Positions 2,029 through 55,430 of a stretch of 55,499 nucleotides of DNA are shown piece by piece. Positions within the stretch are counted from its first letter, which is position 1. Every line of letters starts with the position of its first letter. Location: the NCBI RefSeq assembly GCF_001650635.1, contig NZ_LWQU01000112.1, forward strand, positions 1-55,499, given 5' to 3'. A model generated the notes under the pieces. It searched no databases, was not told the DNA's origin, and was given only the letters and a program-made list of their open reading frames with translations. A program made the translations under genes and the position numbers. This DNA comes from Magnetospirillum moscoviense (GTDB lineage Bacteria; Pseudomonadota; Alphaproteobacteria; Rhodospirillales; Magnetospirillaceae).

Positions 2029-3585
2029 ATGGCCAAGCGCCCGCGGATATTCGTCAGCATCGCGTCTTATCGCGATACCGAATGTCAATGGACGGTCCGC
2101 GACCTGTTTCTGAAGGCCCGCCATCCCGAGCGGGTCTTCGTCGGCATCTGCTGGCAGTTCGTCAAGGACGAGGACGAGGATTGCTTCTTGTTCCAGACCC
2201 GGCCCGAGCAGTGCCGGGTGATCGAGGTCAACGCCAACGAAAGCCTGGGGGCGTGCTGGGCGCGCTCGAAGGTGCAATCCCTGTGGGCCGGCGAGGAATA
2301 TTCGCTGCAGATCGACAGCCACATGCGCTTCATCCAGGATTGGGACGACGTGCTGCTGGACATGCTGAAGCTTTGTCCGTCCAAAAAGCCGATCCTGTCA
2401 TCCTATCCGCCGGGCTACGATCCGCCAGACCAATTGGCCGATCCGACGGTGGTCGAGATCATTCCCAACGAATACGACGCCCACGGCGTGCTGAAGCTGC
2501 GCTCTAACGCCTGGGCCGAGCCCAAGGACCCGCCGCCGCCCAAGCGCAATCCCTTCATCGCCGGCGGCTTGCTGTTCGGCCGGTCCTCGCTGATCACCGA
2601 TGTTCCCTACGATCCCTATCTTTATTTTCACGGCGAGGAGATCACCCTGGCGGTGCGCCTGTTCACCGCTGGCTACGACGTCTATGCCCCCAGCCGAACC
2701 ATCGCCTTCCACGATTATACCAACCGGCGCGGCCGCCATCGTCACTGGGACGATTTCGACTGGAAGCATCTGAACGACCTGTCGTTCAGCCGCATCCGCC
2801 ACCTGTTGGGGATGGAGGTCAGTTCCGACCCCGAAGTGATCCGCGAGCTGGATAAATACGGCCTGGGCACGGCGCGCACGCTGGCCGAGTACCAAGCCTT
2901 CGCCAACCTGGATTTCAAGAACCGGCTGATCGACGGCAAGACCGCCGAGCAGCGCGAGGCCGGACTGACCCTGGATCAGCGCCGCGAGAACGCCCGCAAG
3001 GCCTTCGGCGAGATCTATCGCCAGAATGGCTGGGGCGCGAAGGAAACCAAGTGCGGCTGGGGCTCGACCCTGGCCCAGACCGAGGTGCTGCGTCGCAAGC
3101 TGCCCGACCTGTTGCGCTTCCTGGGCGCCGATATCGTCATCGACGCCGGCTGCGGCGACGCCAACTGGATCTCGCAGATCAGTCAGGATTTCAGGCTGTA
3201 TCTCGGCTTCGACCTGGTCGAGGAGGCGATCATGGACATGCGCAAGCGCCATAACCGGCGCCTGTCCCATTCCTTCGCGGTGGCCGACATCACCCGCGAC
3301 GTCCTGCCCAAGGGCGATGTCATCGTGTGCCGCGACGTGCTGACCCATTTGCCGGCCGACATGACCCTGGAAGCTCTGGCCCGCTTCAAGCAAAGCGGTT
3401 CGGCCTATCTGCTGGCCACCACCTTCACCGACACCGCCAATTCCGACATCCGCATCGGCGGCTGGTATCCGTCGAACCTGACCGCCGCGCCCTTCAACCT
3501 GCCGCCGCCGCGCATCCTGCTGTCCGAGGACCTGTCCGGCACCACCAAATCCCTGGGCGTGTGGGCGATCGCCGACCTGCCATGA
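2029..3585 (+). CDS. Glycosyltransferase (Skp1-type GlcNAc transferase family) fused to a SAM methyltransferase
   Basis: This is a 518-residue two-domain protein. Residues 1 to about 300 resemble the GlcNAc-transferase family related to eukaryotic Skp1 hydroxyproline GlcNAc transferase: the start RPRIFVSIASYRD, the acceptor/metal-like QIDSHMRF near residue 100, a GGLLFG segment and HGEEI. Residues about 340-518 are a class I SAM-dependent methyltransferase with motif I DAGCGDANW near residue 372 and CRDVLTHLP. The start has an AGGAGG ribosome site. The stop overlaps the next start (ATGA at 3582-3585), so the two genes are coupled. The likely role (inference) is adding a sugar to, and methylating, a surface polymer or the upstream Thr/Pro protein. 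The exact donor and acceptor cannot be read from sequence. Confidence 0.8.
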   Translation: MAKRPRIFVSIASYRDTECQWTVRDLFLKARHPERVFVGICWQFVKDEDEDCFLFQTRPEQCRVIEVNANESLGACWARSKVQSLWAGEEYSLQIDSHMRFIQDWDDVLLDMLKLCPSKKPILSSYPPGYDPPDQLADPTVVEIIPNEYDAHGVLKLRSNAWAEPKDPPPPKRNPFIAGGLLFGRSSLITDVPYDPYLYFHGEEITLAVRLFTAGYDVYAPSRTIAFHDYTNRRGRHRHWDDFDWKHLNDLSFSRIRHLLGMEVSSDPEVIRELDKYGLGTARTLAEYQAFANLDFKNRLIDGKTAEQREAGLTLDQRRENARKAFGEIYRQNGWGAKETKCGWGSTLAQTEVLRRKLPDLLRFLGADIVIDAGCGDANWISQISQDFRLYLGFDLVEEAIMDMRKRHNRRLSHSFAVADITRDVLPKGDVIVCRDVLTHLPADMTLEALARFKQSGSAYLLATTFTDTANSDIRIGGWYPSNLTAAPFNLPPPRILLSEDLSGTTKSLGVWAIADLP

Positions 3586-4976
3586 CCGACGCCAGCGATT
3601 TCGCCGACACCCCTGTCCTGGCCCAACGCATCGCCTTGGCGACCCAGGCCGGTCGGATGGATCAGGCCGGCGAACTGGCGAAGGCCTTGGCGGTTCAGGG
3701 GCGCGCCCCGGTGCGGGTGGCCCGGGCCCTGCTGGACCAAGGCCTGGACAGCGCCGCCTGTCTGGTGCTGGACCACTTGATGGACCATGATTCCCACGTC
3801 CGGGGCGCGGCGGCGCTGCAGGCCAAGGCCTGCCTGGGCGTCGGCCGGGTCGAGGCCGGGCTGGAGGCGCTGGCCCTGGCCGCGGCCGAAAATCCCGACG
3901 ACCCGGCCGCCGCCGCTGCCCTGGCCCGTCTGCTGATCGATCTGGGCCGCTGGGCCGAGGCGGTGCCGTGGCTGCGCCGCTGGGTCGCGCTGGTGCCCGC
4001 CGAGCCCGAACCCGAGAGCCTGCTGGGTCAAGCCTTAAGCTTGCGCCGGCCGCCGCCGCCGGGTGCCGAGTTGGACGATGTGCGCCTGGCCGACGCCCTG
4101 TACCGGGTACCGGTGCTGGCCGCCCAGCCGTTCGACCGGTTGCGCCTGACCCGGCTGACCGGCGGCAATGTCAATGTTGTCTACCGGGTTGACGGCCCGT
4201 CGGGCAGTTTCGTCGTGCGCCTGGCCAAGTATCCGCGCCAGCGCTGGGATGCCTATATCGAGGAACGGGCCAACCTGCGCCAGGCCCACGCCCGCCGCCT
4301 GGCCCCGGAACCGCTGTACATGGACATCGCCGACGGGACCTTGGTCATGCCGTTCGTGGTGGGCAAGGCAGGCGGTAGCATGAATGATCCGGCCTTCCTG
4401 GCCCGGGTCGCCGATTTCTTTCGCCGCCTGCATGCCGGTCCGGACTTCAGGGGCCGCTTCGACCCGCTGGTGCCGCTGGACTGGCGGGAAGAACGGGTGG
4501 CAGGACTGGTGCCGGACTGGGTTCCCGACCTGGCGGCGTTGCGCGCCGCCATGGCCGAAATCCGCGCCGCCCTGGCCGCCACCGCGCCCGGTTTCGCGCC
4601 CTGTCACAACGACCCGATCATCGGCAATTTCATCGATTCCCGTGACGGCCTGGTGATGATCGACTGGCAGACGGCGGCGATGGCCGATCCCGACGGCGAA
4701 ATCGGCGCCTTCCTGGCCCGCATCTCGCGCGCCGGCACCTTGCGCGACGATTTCCTGGCTGCCTTCTATGGCCATGCCGACCATCCACGCGCCCACCGCG
4801 CCCGCCTGTGGGAATGCATGGCCCGCTATGTCGAGATCGTCGAGGCGGTGCAGATGGGAATCGACGACCCGGCCGATACCGGCTGGATCGATCACGGCAA
4901 GCTAGCACTGGACACCGTGCGTCTGCTGCAAGACGATGGAACGGTATCGAGGGGACTGGTTGGCGTGAAGGGGTAG
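3582..4976 (+). CDS. TPR-like protein fused to an aminoglycoside/choline-kinase type phosphotransferase
   Basis: 464 residues. Residues 1 to about 150 are Ala/Leu-rich helical pairs of TPR type. Residues about 175-440 form an APH/choline-kinase fold: LTGGNVNVVYRV as the nucleotide loop, VVRLAKYP with the ATP-binding Lys, the catalytic loop CHNDPIIGNF (His342, Asp344, Asn349) and the metal-binding Asp361 in MIDWQ. I chose the ATG at 3582, which overlaps the previous stop by four bases; longer in-frame extensions run through the upstream gene. In this family the substrate is a small hydroxyl compound or sugar. In this operon a phosphorylated surface sugar or choline-like group is plausible, but that is inference. 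Confidence 0.8.
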   Translation: MTDASDFADTPVLAQRIALATQAGRMDQAGELAKALAVQGRAPVRVARALLDQGLDSAACLVLDHLMDHDSHVRGAAALQAKACLGVGRVEAGLEALALAAAENPDDPAAAAALARLLIDLGRWAEAVPWLRRWVALVPAEPEPESLLGQALSLRRPPPPGAELDDVRLADALYRVPVLAAQPFDRLRLTRLTGGNVNVVYRVDGPSGSFVVRLAKYPRQRWDAYIEERANLRQAHARRLAPEPLYMDIADGTLVMPFVVGKAGGSMNDPAFLARVADFFRRLHAGPDFRGRFDPLVPLDWREERVAGLVPDWVPDLAALRAAMAEIRAALAATAPGFAPCHNDPIIGNFIDSRDGLVMIDWQTAAMADPDGEIGAFLARISRAGTLRDDFLAAFYGHADHPRAHRARLWECMARYVEIVEAVQMGIDDPADTGWIDHGKLALDTVRLLQDDGTVSRGLVGVKG

Positions 4977-52638: not shown

Positions 52639-52926
52639 ATGCAGGGCGGCTGGGTCTACATCATGACGAACCGACCGAATAGCACGCTGTACGTCGGTGT
52701 GACCAGCGATTTGGCACGTCGAGCTTGGGAGCACCAGGAAGGCGTCGCCGACGGCTTTACCAAGCGGTACGGGCTGAAGCGGTTGGTTTATGTCGAGCGA
52801 TACGAGGACATCCGCACCGCCATTCAGCGGGAAAAGAACCTCAAGCACTGGCCTGGGGCGTGGAAGGTCAAGCTTATCCTGGCCGACAATCCGAACTGGG
52901 ACGATCTCTACGAGCGGCTGGCGTAG
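52639..52926 (+). CDS. GIY-YIG nuclease domain protein
   Basis: 95 residues from ATG 52639; GTG 52603 gives a 107-residue version that runs into the left repeat. The single GIY-YIG domain is seen in WVYIMTNRPNSTLYVGVTSD, the catalytic Arg in LARRAWEHQEG, TKRYGLKRLVYVE and the Glu in AIQREKNLKHW. Proteins of this size (UvrC-nuclease-like, YhbQ group) have mostly unknown roles. The stop codon touches the right palindromic repeat, so the gene plus its two repeats form a compact cassette. Confidence 0.9.
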   Translation: MQGGWVYIMTNRPNSTLYVGVTSDLARRAWEHQEGVADGFTKRYGLKRLVYVERYEDIRTAIQREKNLKHWPGAWKVKLILADNPNWDDLYERLA

Positions 52927-52955
52927 CCGTGGATAGCCGGGTCAAGCCCCGCTAT
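52926..52955. repeat. Right palindromic repeat flanking the GIY-YIG gene
   Basis: This 30-bp segment (central gtggatagccgggtcaagcc) is an inverted copy of 52568-52597, differing at four positions. It begins on the last base of the GIY-YIG stop codon. Confidence 0.7.
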
Positions 52956-52986
52956 TGCCCGTTTGCCGACTCCTTCGGTTCTGACA

Positions 52987-53001
52987 TTCTCCACTGGAGA
53001 A
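52987..53001. promoter_or_regulatory. MerR-type operator-like dyad
   Basis: TTCTCC-act-GGAGAA is a perfect 6-3-6 dyad preceded by ctgaca, a -35-like hexamer. MerR-family operators have a dyad in a long spacer in this position, but no good -10 is present and the flanking gene is missing. It may be a relic of a promoter interrupted by the insertion-sequence material that follows. Confidence 0.25.
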
Positions 53002-53071
53002 AGATCGAGAGGTCAAGGTGTCGGCGTGAATTGGAGGTGACCATGAGGGACCTGATACCAAGTCCCATTGA

Positions 53072-53158
53072 TCAGAACCCATGCGCCCATTGGCGCAGCC
53101 CGATGGACATGATGGTCCAGGGCTGGTCGGTGAGTTTGTTCCAGGCGTAGCAGCCTGG
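53072..53158 (-). pseudogene. C-terminal fragment of an IS630-family transposase
   Basis: On the minus strand, the 27 codons before the TGA at 53074-53072 read CYAWNKLTDQPWTIMSIG and then LRQWAHGF. This matches the conserved C-terminal end of IS630-type transposases (AWN.L..QPW.I.SIG.R.WA). The frame is closed upstream by a TAA (53161-53159), so only a tail remains. It lies exactly where the core genome gives way to magnetosome genes. Confidence 0.7.
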
Positions 53159-53208
53159 TTAAGCTATCGCTTTGTTCAAATTATGCCGCCAGTGCGCTGG
53201 AGGACACC

Positions 53209-53775
53209 ATGTGCGGGGCATGCCCCATAGGTTGTATGATGCTTATGCCCGATGGTGATGAGGAAGGGGAGACGCGTTCCCACGGTTCTCGCTGCAAGGA
53301 TCTGAGGCGTTACCTGATACTGATGGGGGGGCTGGCTCTGATGGTTCTGTTGGGGGCCTTCGTTTACCGGCACCCCTCAGATGGTCTCAATCTGCCATGG
53401 GCTCGACGCTGGGCCAAAATGGAGGCGTTGCAGTCAATGCCTCGACCCTATCTGGGGAGAACCTAGCGCTACCGGTTTCCCAAGCTGCGGGTTTGGAATC
53501 GACATCGGTGGGGAGCGGAGGGCCGTTCTCCAGCGTCGTGACCCTTTTGCGCAATGACGGCTTCATCGTCACCAATTACCATGTGGTGCGCATTGAGACC
53601 TTTCAGCAGTCCCAAGCGTCGGACGAAATGGCCGATACATCGATCGCCGGGGTTCTAAACTCACGATCAAAGTGCAACGCCCATTATAAAGGCTGTTGCG
53701 GTGGGAACGCCCTATGGTCAGCAGATTTTGTTGCAGGTGGATCGCAATGGCCAGAAATTGCAGATTATGCTGTGA
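53209..53775 (+). pseudogene. mamE: Degenerate magnetosome protease gene mamE-like
   Basis: The N-terminal part (likely true start ATG 53236 or 53239) reads CKDLRRYLILMGGLALMVLL then GAFVYR, matching the MamE membrane anchor. It stops at 53464-53466. In the +2-shifted frame, GGPFSSVVTLLRN is joined directly to DGFIVTNYHVVR and then to IETFQ. These are three separate MamE segments, so the catalytic domain after the His, the haem-binding CXXCH motifs and most PDZ sequence are deleted. After another frame change, AVGTPYGQQILLQVDRNGQ and KLQIML match the MamE C terminus, ending at TGA 53773-53775. MamE normally processes magnetosome proteins and sorts them. This copy cannot encode an active protease. 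mamJ-like follows after 14 bases, the canonical mamE-mamJ order. Confidence 0.78.
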
Positions 53776-53789
53776 CGGAGGAGGTGTAG

Positions 53790-54695
53790 ATGACGAGTAA
53801 CCGACGGAACCGCGCCAAGGGGGCGCTTGATGAAAAGAAGTCAAGCTGGAAAGTCGCTGACTTAGCGGCGCCGCCTGTCGAGTCCGCACCCGCGCCTGAA
53901 CCTGCGGTCGCTCCGGCCGTGGCGGCGCCCAACCAGGGCAACGCATGGGCGGCGCTGCTGAAAACCTCGCCATGGTCCTCGAATCAAGCGGAGAACAAGC
54001 CGGACGAGCCGCAGGATATTCCCAAGCTTGCCGCGCTCGGCCCGCCTGAAACCGCCCCTGTCGGTGACCTTCTCGCCCAGTGGTCACCGCAGATATGGCG
54101 CCTTCCCGCGCAGGTCCATGATGATGGTGATGCCGCTGAAATTGAGCAGCGGCCCGAGCCGTTTGTTGATATGAACACGGAGCATGCGCCAAGCCAGGGG
54201 GCCGTATCTGAAATCCCGGCCGAGCCCGAGGCGGTGCATGACAATTCCATGACCGGTACTGAGGGAGATACCCAGATGATTTCAGTGGAAACCGAGGCTG
54301 AAATTGCCCTCGAATCGGAGGTTCTGGTTGCACCGGTGGTGGCCGAGCCGCTGCCTGAGTCCGAGACTGACGTCCCGCTGTCGGAGGCTTCCATGGCCGA
54401 TGACCATTTGACGATGATCTCTGACCCGTATGTCGTGGTGGACGAACCCATCGGCATACCGAACCCTGTCGAGGAGGCCTCTGTGGCCGCCTCCGCCGTA
54501 AGTTCAGTCAAGGAAGTTCCGGTAGAGGATATGTTTTCTGGAATTTTCAATGTGGCGAATGCGGCATTGCGCAGCGCCATCAGCCTGTCCACGGAGGTGG
54601 CCAACGATCCTAAGGCGGTGGGCGGCAAAATCGCCGCTCGCAGCCAAAGCCTTTTGGCCTCTTTCAAGGAACGTTGCGGTATCCGCCGGATTTAG
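53790..54695 (+). CDS. mamJ: MamJ-like (LimJ-like) acidic magnetosome-chain protein
   Basis: 301 residues behind a strong GGAGGAGG. Recognised by MamJ landmarks: the N-terminal SNRRNRAK, WAALLKTSPWSSNQ (residues 53-66; MamJ has WASLLESSPWSANQ) and PVGDLLAQWSPQIWR (90-104; MamJ PVADLVNRWSQPIWR). The middle (about 110-240) is acidic, Glu/Pro/Val-rich and low complexity, shorter than the repeats of MamJ. The C terminus (about 246-301) is helical (NVANAALRSAISLSTEVAND), where MamJ binds the actin-like MamK. MamJ ties magnetosomes to MamK filaments. No mamK follows, so this is probably a second copy like LimJ of M. magneticum. G+C is low (50% in the 60 bases from 54241). Confidence 0.82.
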   Translation: MTSNRRNRAKGALDEKKSSWKVADLAAPPVESAPAPEPAVAPAVAAPNQGNAWAALLKTSPWSSNQAENKPDEPQDIPKLAALGPPETAPVGDLLAQWSPQIWRLPAQVHDDGDAAEIEQRPEPFVDMNTEHAPSQGAVSEIPAEPEAVHDNSMTGTEGDTQMISVETEAEIALESEVLVAPVVAEPLPESETDVPLSEASMADDHLTMISDPYVVVDEPIGIPNPVEEASVAASAVSSVKEVPVEDMFSGIFNVANAALRSAISLSTEVANDPKAVGGKIAARSQSLLASFKERCGIRRI

Positions 54696-54940
54696 CTGCG
54701 GCGAGGGCGGGCGGCGGCAGAGCCAAAAATTAAGCCCGCCATCAAGCCGACAGCCACGGCGGCACCCAGTGGACCGCCAGCCAAAGCGCCAACCCCGACG
54801 CCAGCCATCTTGCCCATGGTCAGGAAACCCGCAGCCTTGGCGGTTCCCGCCGCGACAGCGCTACCAGCTCCGGCGACGGTGGAGCGAACGATAGTACGAG
54901 AACCCGCAGAGGAGGTGAACGCGGTGGGTTGACGGCTCAT
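54692..54940 (-). CDS. Small Gly/Ala-rich membrane protein, possibly magnetosome-associated
   Basis: 82 residues from ATG 54940, five bases after AGGTG; a 102-residue extension to 55000 would overlap the promoter. A Ser/Thr/Arg-rich N terminus is followed by a Gly/Ala/Val/Leu-rich hydrophobic hairpin (about 37-76, with GVGVGALAGGPLGAAVAVGL) and a basic tail RPRRS. Such small Gly-rich hydrophobic proteins are typical of magnetosome membranes (Mms6, MamD, MamG types), but I find no specific match. It is convergent with the mamJ-like gene and overlaps it by four bases. Confidence 0.55.
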   Translation of the reverse strand: MSRQPTAFTSSAGSRTIVRSTVAGAGSAVAAGTAKAAGFLTMGKMAGVGVGALAGGPLGAAVAVGLMAGLIFGSAAARPRRS

Positions 54941-54982
54941 GGGACACCTATCGGCTGTTTTTGAGAATAACTCTCGAACGCA

Positions 54983-55011
54983 GTTATGCCGCAACTGCAA
55001 CTCATTGTCAA
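54983..55011 (-). promoter_or_regulatory. Strong sigma-70 promoter for the small membrane protein gene
   Basis: On the minus strand, TTGACA (55011-55006), a 17-bp spacer and CATAAC (54988-54983). Downstream, between the start site and ATG, TTGAGAATAACTCTCGAA (54961-54978) is an imperfect dyad with GAGA/TCTC arms that could be an operator. Confidence 0.6.
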
Positions 55012-55049
55012 TTGAGTTTTTCTCGGCCGACGGCTTTTAGGGATTTCCG

Positions 55050-55430
55050 TCAGGAGTCATGCGGGGCAGCGAGTGATCCAATGATCTGGCATTCAGCGAC
55101 GACCTCGCCGCAGCAATTGGTCATCTTGCGTAATTCCTCTCGAAGCAGGACGAGATCGGCGATTTTCCGTTCCACCTCGCCGAGTTGGCGGGCAACCATC
55201 TGGTCCGCATCGGCACAAGGCAAATCTGGTCGCGCCGCCAATGCGAGCAGGGTGCGGATGGACTCGATGGAAAACCCAAGATCGCGGCCGCGCCGAATAA
55301 AGGTAAGCGATGTTCCGCCCCCACCCGTCCGCGCCTCGGCCAACCGCTCCACCCAGCCCCGCCGGCCGTCGCCGATGTCGGAGGCGCCCTGGGCTGTCAG
55401 TAGCGCCTTGATAGTGTTGATCGTAAGCAT
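55050..55430 (-). CDS. MerR-family regulator, C-terminal part; DNA-binding half not recognisable
   Basis: 126 residues from ATG 55430, although the frame stays open to the window edge. From residue 42, LTFIRRGRDLGFSIESIRTL and LALAARPDLPCADADQMVARQ are typical of MerR/CueR-type metal regulators: helix, dimerisation coil, Cys near residue 73. The C terminus has CCGEVVAECQIIGSL with metal-binding-like Cys. The N-terminal 41 residues lack the expected winged-helix (xIRYYExxGLL) pattern, which suggests replacement, frameshifts or decay of the DNA-binding half. Confidence 0.6.
   Translation of the reverse strand: MLTINTIKALLTAQGASDIGDGRRGWVERLAEARTGGGGTSLTFIRRGRDLGFSIESIRTLLALAARPDLPCADADQMVARQLGEVERKIADLVLLREELRKMTNCCGEVVAECQIIGSLAAPHDS

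Follow-up and report, generated by a model that had tools for sequence, protein, structure and literature searches.

The window analysed here is the whole of contig C112 (NZ_LWQU01000112.1; 55,499 bases) of Magnetospirillum moscoviense BB-1, whose assembly totals 4,164,497 bases over 207 contigs. A cassette at 53.2-55.3 kb, about 0.2 kb off the contig end, contains an intact mamJ paralogue, called J2 below, next to the wreck of a mamE gene (mamE2). In our view, J2 is probably the BB-1 version of the LimJ-type mamJ paralogue that belongs to a second magnetosome cluster, mamAB-2; this reading concerns its identity and origin, not its current use, and draws on family score, phylogeny, and flanking genes. 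The second cluster (mamE, J, O, Q, R, B) is already in print, in a source of which the accessible part names BB-1 as a carrier (PMC12724286), and the part seen of an earlier paper counts BB-1 as one of the genomes in which mamAB is duplicated (PMC6819731). J2 is an additional member of the already described mamAB-2 J genes and is ordinary in kind. No description of the mamE2 wreck was found in the consulted part of the open-licence literature on LimJ/MamJ, the AMB-1 islet, BB-1, and mamJ pseudogenes (supplements not covered). The locus is mildly interesting as a mamAB-2 fossil in progress and as a recombinant adaptor gene.

The J2 frame is complete, with 301 codons from ATG to TAG. The NCBIfam MamJ equivalog model NF040987 gave 339.7 bits for its product (E value, 3.7e-101; cutoff, 100 bits), a score by which chance similarity to MamJ is excluded and for which the candidate of an unrelated acidic protein was dropped. 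In the genome search with this model, both pieces exceeded the 100-bit cutoff that marks membership in the MamJ family, and a Pfam search of J2 gave no match. The intact mamJ-like gene proposed by the sequence-only reading is thereby borne out by profile similarity. Its very strong ribosome site was also found: GGAGGAGG ends 5 nucleotides ahead of the ATG, and this exact site precedes only 2 of the 31 J frames compared, J2 and the copy on contig C265 of genome G066 (G066_C265). Sites resembling GGTGGAGC predominate among the other frames, with a strong GGGAGGA in G006. BB-1 contig C5 carries intact mamE, J, K, and L of the main operon, preceded by frames read as putative mamH and mamI, and J2 is therefore a second J; a search of the BB-1 genome with the MamJ model found no third. 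At an E value of 1e-5, the model matched 19 of the 317 genomes of the order, the same 19 as among the 55 of the family, and 17 of them were over the cutoff.

Phylogenetic analysis was done on the N- and C-terminal blocks of 28 (22 different) of the 31 extracted J proteins. Omitted were G076_C21, whose frame is cut, the mamJ-like protein of the AMB-1 islet, and G009_J, whose block motif was unmatched by the pattern; the model matches G076:C77 and G015:C528 lie outside the 31. A 100/100 branch separates two groups, 16 rows on the canonical side and 12 on the LimJ side, and J2 and G066_C265 form a 100/100 pair within the latter. The G066 copy is also the closest relative found, with 67% protein identity. 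As the query of a contig search, the J2 protein alone returned no match, and an 8-row alignment returned 7 named loci. Genome G067 is presumably that of M. magneticum AMB-1, with amb1003 as its LimJ. This LimJ resembles J2 in clade, in length (313 amino acids), in a longest exact repeat of 7 residues, in the mamE-type gene upstream, and in Gly, MerR, and ZntA downstream, Gly being a small glycine-rich protein. It differs in that the two are only 42% identical, that mamO, mamQ, and mamB follow it, and that its mamE-type neighbor was not broken in the search.

The gene order agrees with the tree. In AMB-1, G070, and G074 (and in G029 as far as it was fetched), the order is mamE-type gene, LimJ, O, Q, B, Gly, MerR, ZntA; on G066 C265 it is E2-J2-Gly-MerR-ZntA, and in the window it is E2 (dead)-J2-Gly-MerR (cut). 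A mamE-type gene thus lies directly upstream in both short loci, as a remnant in the window and intact in G066. Of the Gly-MerR-ZntA flank, the window has Gly and a partial MerR, and a tail of ZntA is found only on another contig, C166. By tree and flanking genes, J2 is of the LimJ type, and LimJ was an apt comparison for the sequence-only reading to choose. That reading also stressed the lack of mamK. None follows J2 in the window, and an intact mamK is on contig C5. The next gene after J is mamO at seven LimJ-side loci (L053, L054, L055, L061, L064, L070, and L071), mamL at two (L068 and L104), and Gly at two (the window and L056, which is the G066 C265 locus), so that mamK directly follows J at 0 of 11 informative loci; a twelfth, SP-1 C86 (L067), ends too early to be informative. 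Because of this count, the absence of mamK is the normal state and nothing remarkable, and the loss of a local mamK was dropped as an explanation.

On G066 C265 (record CACVCF010000279.1, titled Terasakiella sp. PR1), mamY, mamX, mamZ, and ftsZ are followed by ZntA, MerR, Gly, J2, and E2. BB-1 contig C166 matches the mamY-to-ftsZ half of this island with 95.2% identity over 5,960 bases, continues into the tail of ZntA, and then ends; the other half, starting within MerR, has its match in the window. The G066 copy is like J2 in its ribosome site and its neighbors mamE2, Gly, and MerR, but there mamE2, MerR, and ZntA are whole, the locus is joined to mamY-X-Z-ftsZ, and the center and C-terminal part of the J protein differ. 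The last 78 bases of the window recur in contigs C37, C20, and C184, and 74 of them recur in C33, a pattern consistent with a mobile element at the island break; the repeat is not present on C166. The ancestor would have had mamE2-mamJ2-Gly-MerR-ZntA beside ftsZ-mamZ-X-Y, as G066 has today. In the BB-1 line, the island may then have broken between ZntA and MerR, the join itself being unobserved, and mamE2 would have lost its protease core while J2 was left whole.

The sequence-only reading was right to call the neighbor a dead mamE. The intact G066 mamE2 has 564 codons with Trypsin and PDZ domains (L056, 10402-12096, minus strand). Measured against it, the BB-1 copy has deletions of 4, 147, and 945 bp and a replaced segment at about 53657-53714, near its end. 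The usual protease triad is His-Asp-Ser, and the remnant keeps only the His segment. As the assembly is a short-read draft in 207 contigs (PMC4982287), the wreck could in principle be an assembly error, with the pair intact in the organism. We regard this as highly improbable, as there are several separate lesions, including the 945-bp deletion, and they lie about 1.7 kb inside the contig end. Read in the G066 frame, the 144 aligned codons of the remnant, a count that excludes the replaced segment and a 42-base stretch at 53550-53591 identical in G066, contain no stops, with a synonymous divergence (dS) of 0.153, a nonsynonymous divergence (dN) of 0.074, and a dN/dS of 0.48. In the same two genomes, 142 homologous codons of canonical mamE gave 0.23, not significantly different from the remnant (Fisher P = 0.19). 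With no stops and this ratio, no long neutral period is demonstrated; mamE2 died mainly by few events, with no demonstrable point decay. Here, a second magnetosome cluster appears to be caught eroding, its protease gone and its linker frame outliving it, at least for now.

The J2 protein keeps the terminal regions of the family, with departures at some positions. The blocks given by the sequence-only reading as SPWSxNQ and DLxxxW..IWR are found as SPWSSNQ and DLLAQWSPQIWR, and the C-terminal motif as VPVEDMFSGIFNVANAA. The family motifs are given as DXWX2LLEXSPWS and VPVEX4GXFX2AXSA in the part of the source available (PMC2818848). Compared with these, NAWAALLKTSPWS has two departures from the first and VPVEDMFSGIFNVANAA has one from the second; AMB-1 LimJ, too, departs from the first at one position. 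J2 retains 16 of 19 conserved columns in the N-terminal block and 11 of 14 in the C-terminal block, the same numbers as G066_C265. The acidic center lacks the long exact repeats of MamJ, as had been noted from the sequence, the longest being 4 residues in J2 versus 20 in BB-1 main MamJ. The structure model is poor, with a mean predicted local distance difference test score (pLDDT) of 47.7. Where a C-terminal helix had been noted from the sequence, this low-confidence model has two (residues 245-272 and 274-296), with ten-residue block means of 69-78 from residue 251 onward and 58 for 241-250; the rest is modeled, also with low confidence, as unstructured but for short helices. Main-operon MamJ proteins (BB-1 C5, MSR-1, and AMB-1) share the N- and C-terminal motifs and the acidic center with J2, but have exact repeats of 20-44 residues and a Cys-containing tail, and in BB-1 and G066, mamK follows their genes.

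According to the accessible part of PMC3905215, MamJ contacts MamK via its N- and C-terminal regions, and the acidic center with its repeats is dispensable. Because both contact regions are kept and the model is mostly unstructured, J2 could plausibly bridge C5-encoded MamK and magnetosomes. If expressed, it would act in trans as a largely disordered linker, its N- and C-terminal motifs touching canonical MamK and the magnetosome. Such a role would be redundant with that of main MamJ and would need neither a local mamK nor a local mamE. A redundant MamK-magnetosome linker would most likely be its role. Whether J2 is in real current use in BB-1 is a separate matter, and here we lean slightly toward doubt.

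The sequence-only reading took the persistence of J2 beside a wreck as a sign of use. This argument did not hold. Over 301 codons, J2 and the G066 copy have a dS of 0.395, a dN of 0.192, and a ratio of 0.487 (bootstrap, 0.35-0.66). This pairwise comparison combines change along the BB-1 lineage with change along that of G066, in which mamE2 is whole. Because the dead mamE2 shows an equal ratio (0.48 versus 0.49), the intact J2 frame is not evidence of continuing use. More generally, an open frame next to a dead gene counts as evidence of use only once the surviving codons of the dead gene have been checked for neutral decay. By part, J2 has a dN/dS of 0.67 (0.28-1.85) for codons 1-115, 0.50 (0.30-0.82) for codons 116-235, and 0.24 (0.11-0.51) for codons 236-301. 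In a codon branch model that included five outgroup genes from the LimJ side, almost all of the change fell to G066, and the window branch was left with near-zero length, on which dN/dS is inestimable; omega = 1 was not rejected there, with P values of 0.97 (N block), 0.40 (C block), and 0.25 (both), the last two estimates being at a bound.

J2 may be a pseudogene in waiting, made useless when deletions recently destroyed mamE2 and merely not yet hit itself; we find this quite possible, if somewhat short of probable. The stop-free remnant with its matching ratio and the near-zero window branch speak for it, as does a simulation of neutral change, in which the J2 frame stayed free of stops with a probability of 0.49, 0.33, or 0.12 after 30, 45, or 92 random changes; chance survival of the open frame is a possible alternative. 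So does the N block, with a dN/dS of 0.72. The two LimJ pairs gave 0.47 and 0.43 for this block (P = 0.46 for the first), and the J2 ratio is above that of mamX, mamZ, and ftsZ together (P = 2.4e-5), with P = 0.010 when mamY is added and P = 0.50 against mamY alone (dN/dS, 0.43). Set against this, the strong ribosome site and the motifs are retained, and of the three length differences from G066, the two internal ones, of 6 and 18 bases, are divisible by three, though the third, of 35 bases, is located at the end of the frame, at its final codons and stop codon. The same motifs favor the view of the sequence-only reading that J2 is maintained in BB-1 as a second chain-alignment adaptor, as does the C block, whose dN/dS of 0.24 equals that of canonical MamJ (0.24) and is below those of the two LimJ pairs (0.70 and 0.59). 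On sequence evidence we hold this view open with slight reserve. The dS of the C block, 0.46-0.50, exceeds that of the island, 0.11-0.18, and because codons 116-301 look recombined in, the constraint may predate the recombination and stem from the donor. In AMB-1, moreover, deletion of mamJ and limJ has only a minor effect unless mcaA is lost too. Taken together, the substitution data point clearly neither to a release of J2 in BB-1 nor to its upkeep there.

The recombination is suggested by third-position differences between J2 and G066, which increase abruptly around codon 115; none of 2,000 shuffles attained the maximum chi-square of 38.6. For codons 1-115, dS is 0.11, like that of mamY, mamX, mamZ, and ftsZ (0.11-0.18); it then rises to 0.76 and falls to 0.50, and beyond J2 it is 0.25 in the Gly gene and 0.05 in the MerR part. 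Codons 1-115 seem to share the age of the island. Codons 116-301, on the simplest reading, entered either BB-1 or G066 by recombination from a divergent J2 allele; part of the jump could be due to a rapidly evolving center. The MamJ center is reportedly hypervariable in MSR-1, going by the title of a 2007 paper by Scheffel and Schuler. A bolder idea, which we think unlikely, is that LimJ-side adaptors are a recombining modular set in which the acidic center and C-terminal part are exchanged while the frame stays open, J2 being a hybrid adaptor kept as a second canonical-MamK linker or as a source of diversity after the loss of its protease partner. If the mosaic reading is true, the diversification of chain-linker proteins between strains becomes testable. 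Another mosaic J gene, with the halves reversed, was seen between G066_C354 (L104, J at 434-1549) and SP-1 C79 (L068, J at 3304-4518), which are strongly divergent up to about residue 150 and nearly the same from there on.

Several results weigh against the assignment of J2 to mamAB-2 or against the history proposed for it. The tree is midpoint rooted and carries a program warning that J2 and the LimJ rows are joined through long branches. In BB-1 and G066, Gly follows J2 directly, with no O-Q-B in between as in AMB-1, and G066 has a further LimJ-side J copy on contig C354; because of these two points, one-to-one orthology of J2 and AMB-1 LimJ is uncertain. J2 and G066_C265 each miss three conserved columns per block, where most other rows miss 0-2, and the N-block ratio of J2 is three times the value of 0.24 that canonical MamJ gives between these two genomes (Fisher P = 0.10). 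A scan of 52900-55100 found no sigma-70-like promoter, though shuffles, too, give only 0.9. A whole ZntA relative on BB-1 C183 (80% identical to that of G066) is unplaced by the island break, and the DNA ahead of mamE2 in BB-1 differs from that in G066.

The AMB-1 magnetotaxis islet is like the J2 locus in that a mamE-like gene adjoins a mamJ-like gene outside the main operon, as described in the part of the source seen (PMC2818848). Its MamJ-like protein has no role in chain maintenance (PMC9512821). It is unlike J2 in that its best match came from LimJ (30.6% over 98 residues) and that its WS..IWR block was unmatched by the motif pattern. An origin of J2 from the islet was dropped, as no mamK or mamL lies beside J2 and the similarity is poor. 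The positions of all features are collected in the table.

Table. Features of the J2 cassette and its surroundings in the window
Feature	Position	Strand	Basis or remark
Fragment with 84% identity to the DNA that separates the mamL-like and mamJ-like genes of the AMB-1 islet, possible transposon remnant	53055..53154	+	
mamE2 (LimE-type) remnant	53236..53775	+	Alignment with intact G066 mamE2; tblastn pieces
Shine-Dalgarno-like GGAGGAGG	53777..53784	+	Sequence; comparison with 30 other J starts
J2, probable LimJ-type mamJ paralogue, intact, 301 aa	53790..54695	+	MamJ profile score, identity to G066 C265 copy, tree
N-terminal motif, codons W53-S64 (WAALLKTSPWSS)	53946..53981	+	Conserved block
DLLAQWSPQIWR, codons 93-104	54066..54101	+	Conserved block
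Acidic variable center without long repeats, codons 116-235, most diverged part versus G066 copy	54135..54494	+	
C-terminal block beginning at VPVED (codon 243), with two helices in the model	54516..54692	+	Conserved block, structure model
Glycine-rich protein (Gly), 82 aa, function unassigned	54692..54940	-	Also beside LimJ-type loci
Metal-type MerR regulator, C-terminal part (residues 52-136), N-terminal part missing	55050..55302	-	
Repeat, probable mobile-element end, reaching the contig end	55422..55499	+	Shared with four other BB-1 contigs, at their ends or close by

The reading of the fragment ahead of mamE2 as a possible transposon remnant draws on the location of the transposase amb0408 in the islet, as given in the available part of PMC2818848; an own-genome search of BB-1 found no second copy of it. 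The checked genes to the left of the cassette are non-magnetosome genes (lpxI, lpxB, a GidA-family gene, a DUF4170 gene, and a GIY-YIG gene), and 53200-55302 had no plasmid match. The Gly protein had no Pfam or NCBIfam match and is 86-90% identical in AMB-1, G029, G070, G074, and G066. Conserved beside LimJ-type loci, with a dN/dS of 0.19 versus G066, it is an unnamed island gene.

BB-1 contig C33 (L098) has a short second cluster at 46-2997 that starts at the contig edge. It was read as the end of mamM, followed by a MamO-like frame (288 amino acids; 428.9 bits, with a model cutoff of 800) and relatives of MamB and MamQ; MamJ and mamE2 searches of BB-1 found no E or J belonging to it. G066 mamE2 scores 762.5 bits, below the MamE cutoff of 800, and has no cysteine and hence no CXXCH heme motif; this motif occurs twice in LimE of G029 and three times in BB-1 main MamE. 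The G066 record is titled Terasakiella, yet the genome groups with the genus of AMB-1 and is possibly mislabeled or mixed. The 95.2% identity of mamY-X-Z-ftsZ between BB-1 (L121, on C166) and G066 (L056), which is placed in another genus, fits an island transfer between genera.
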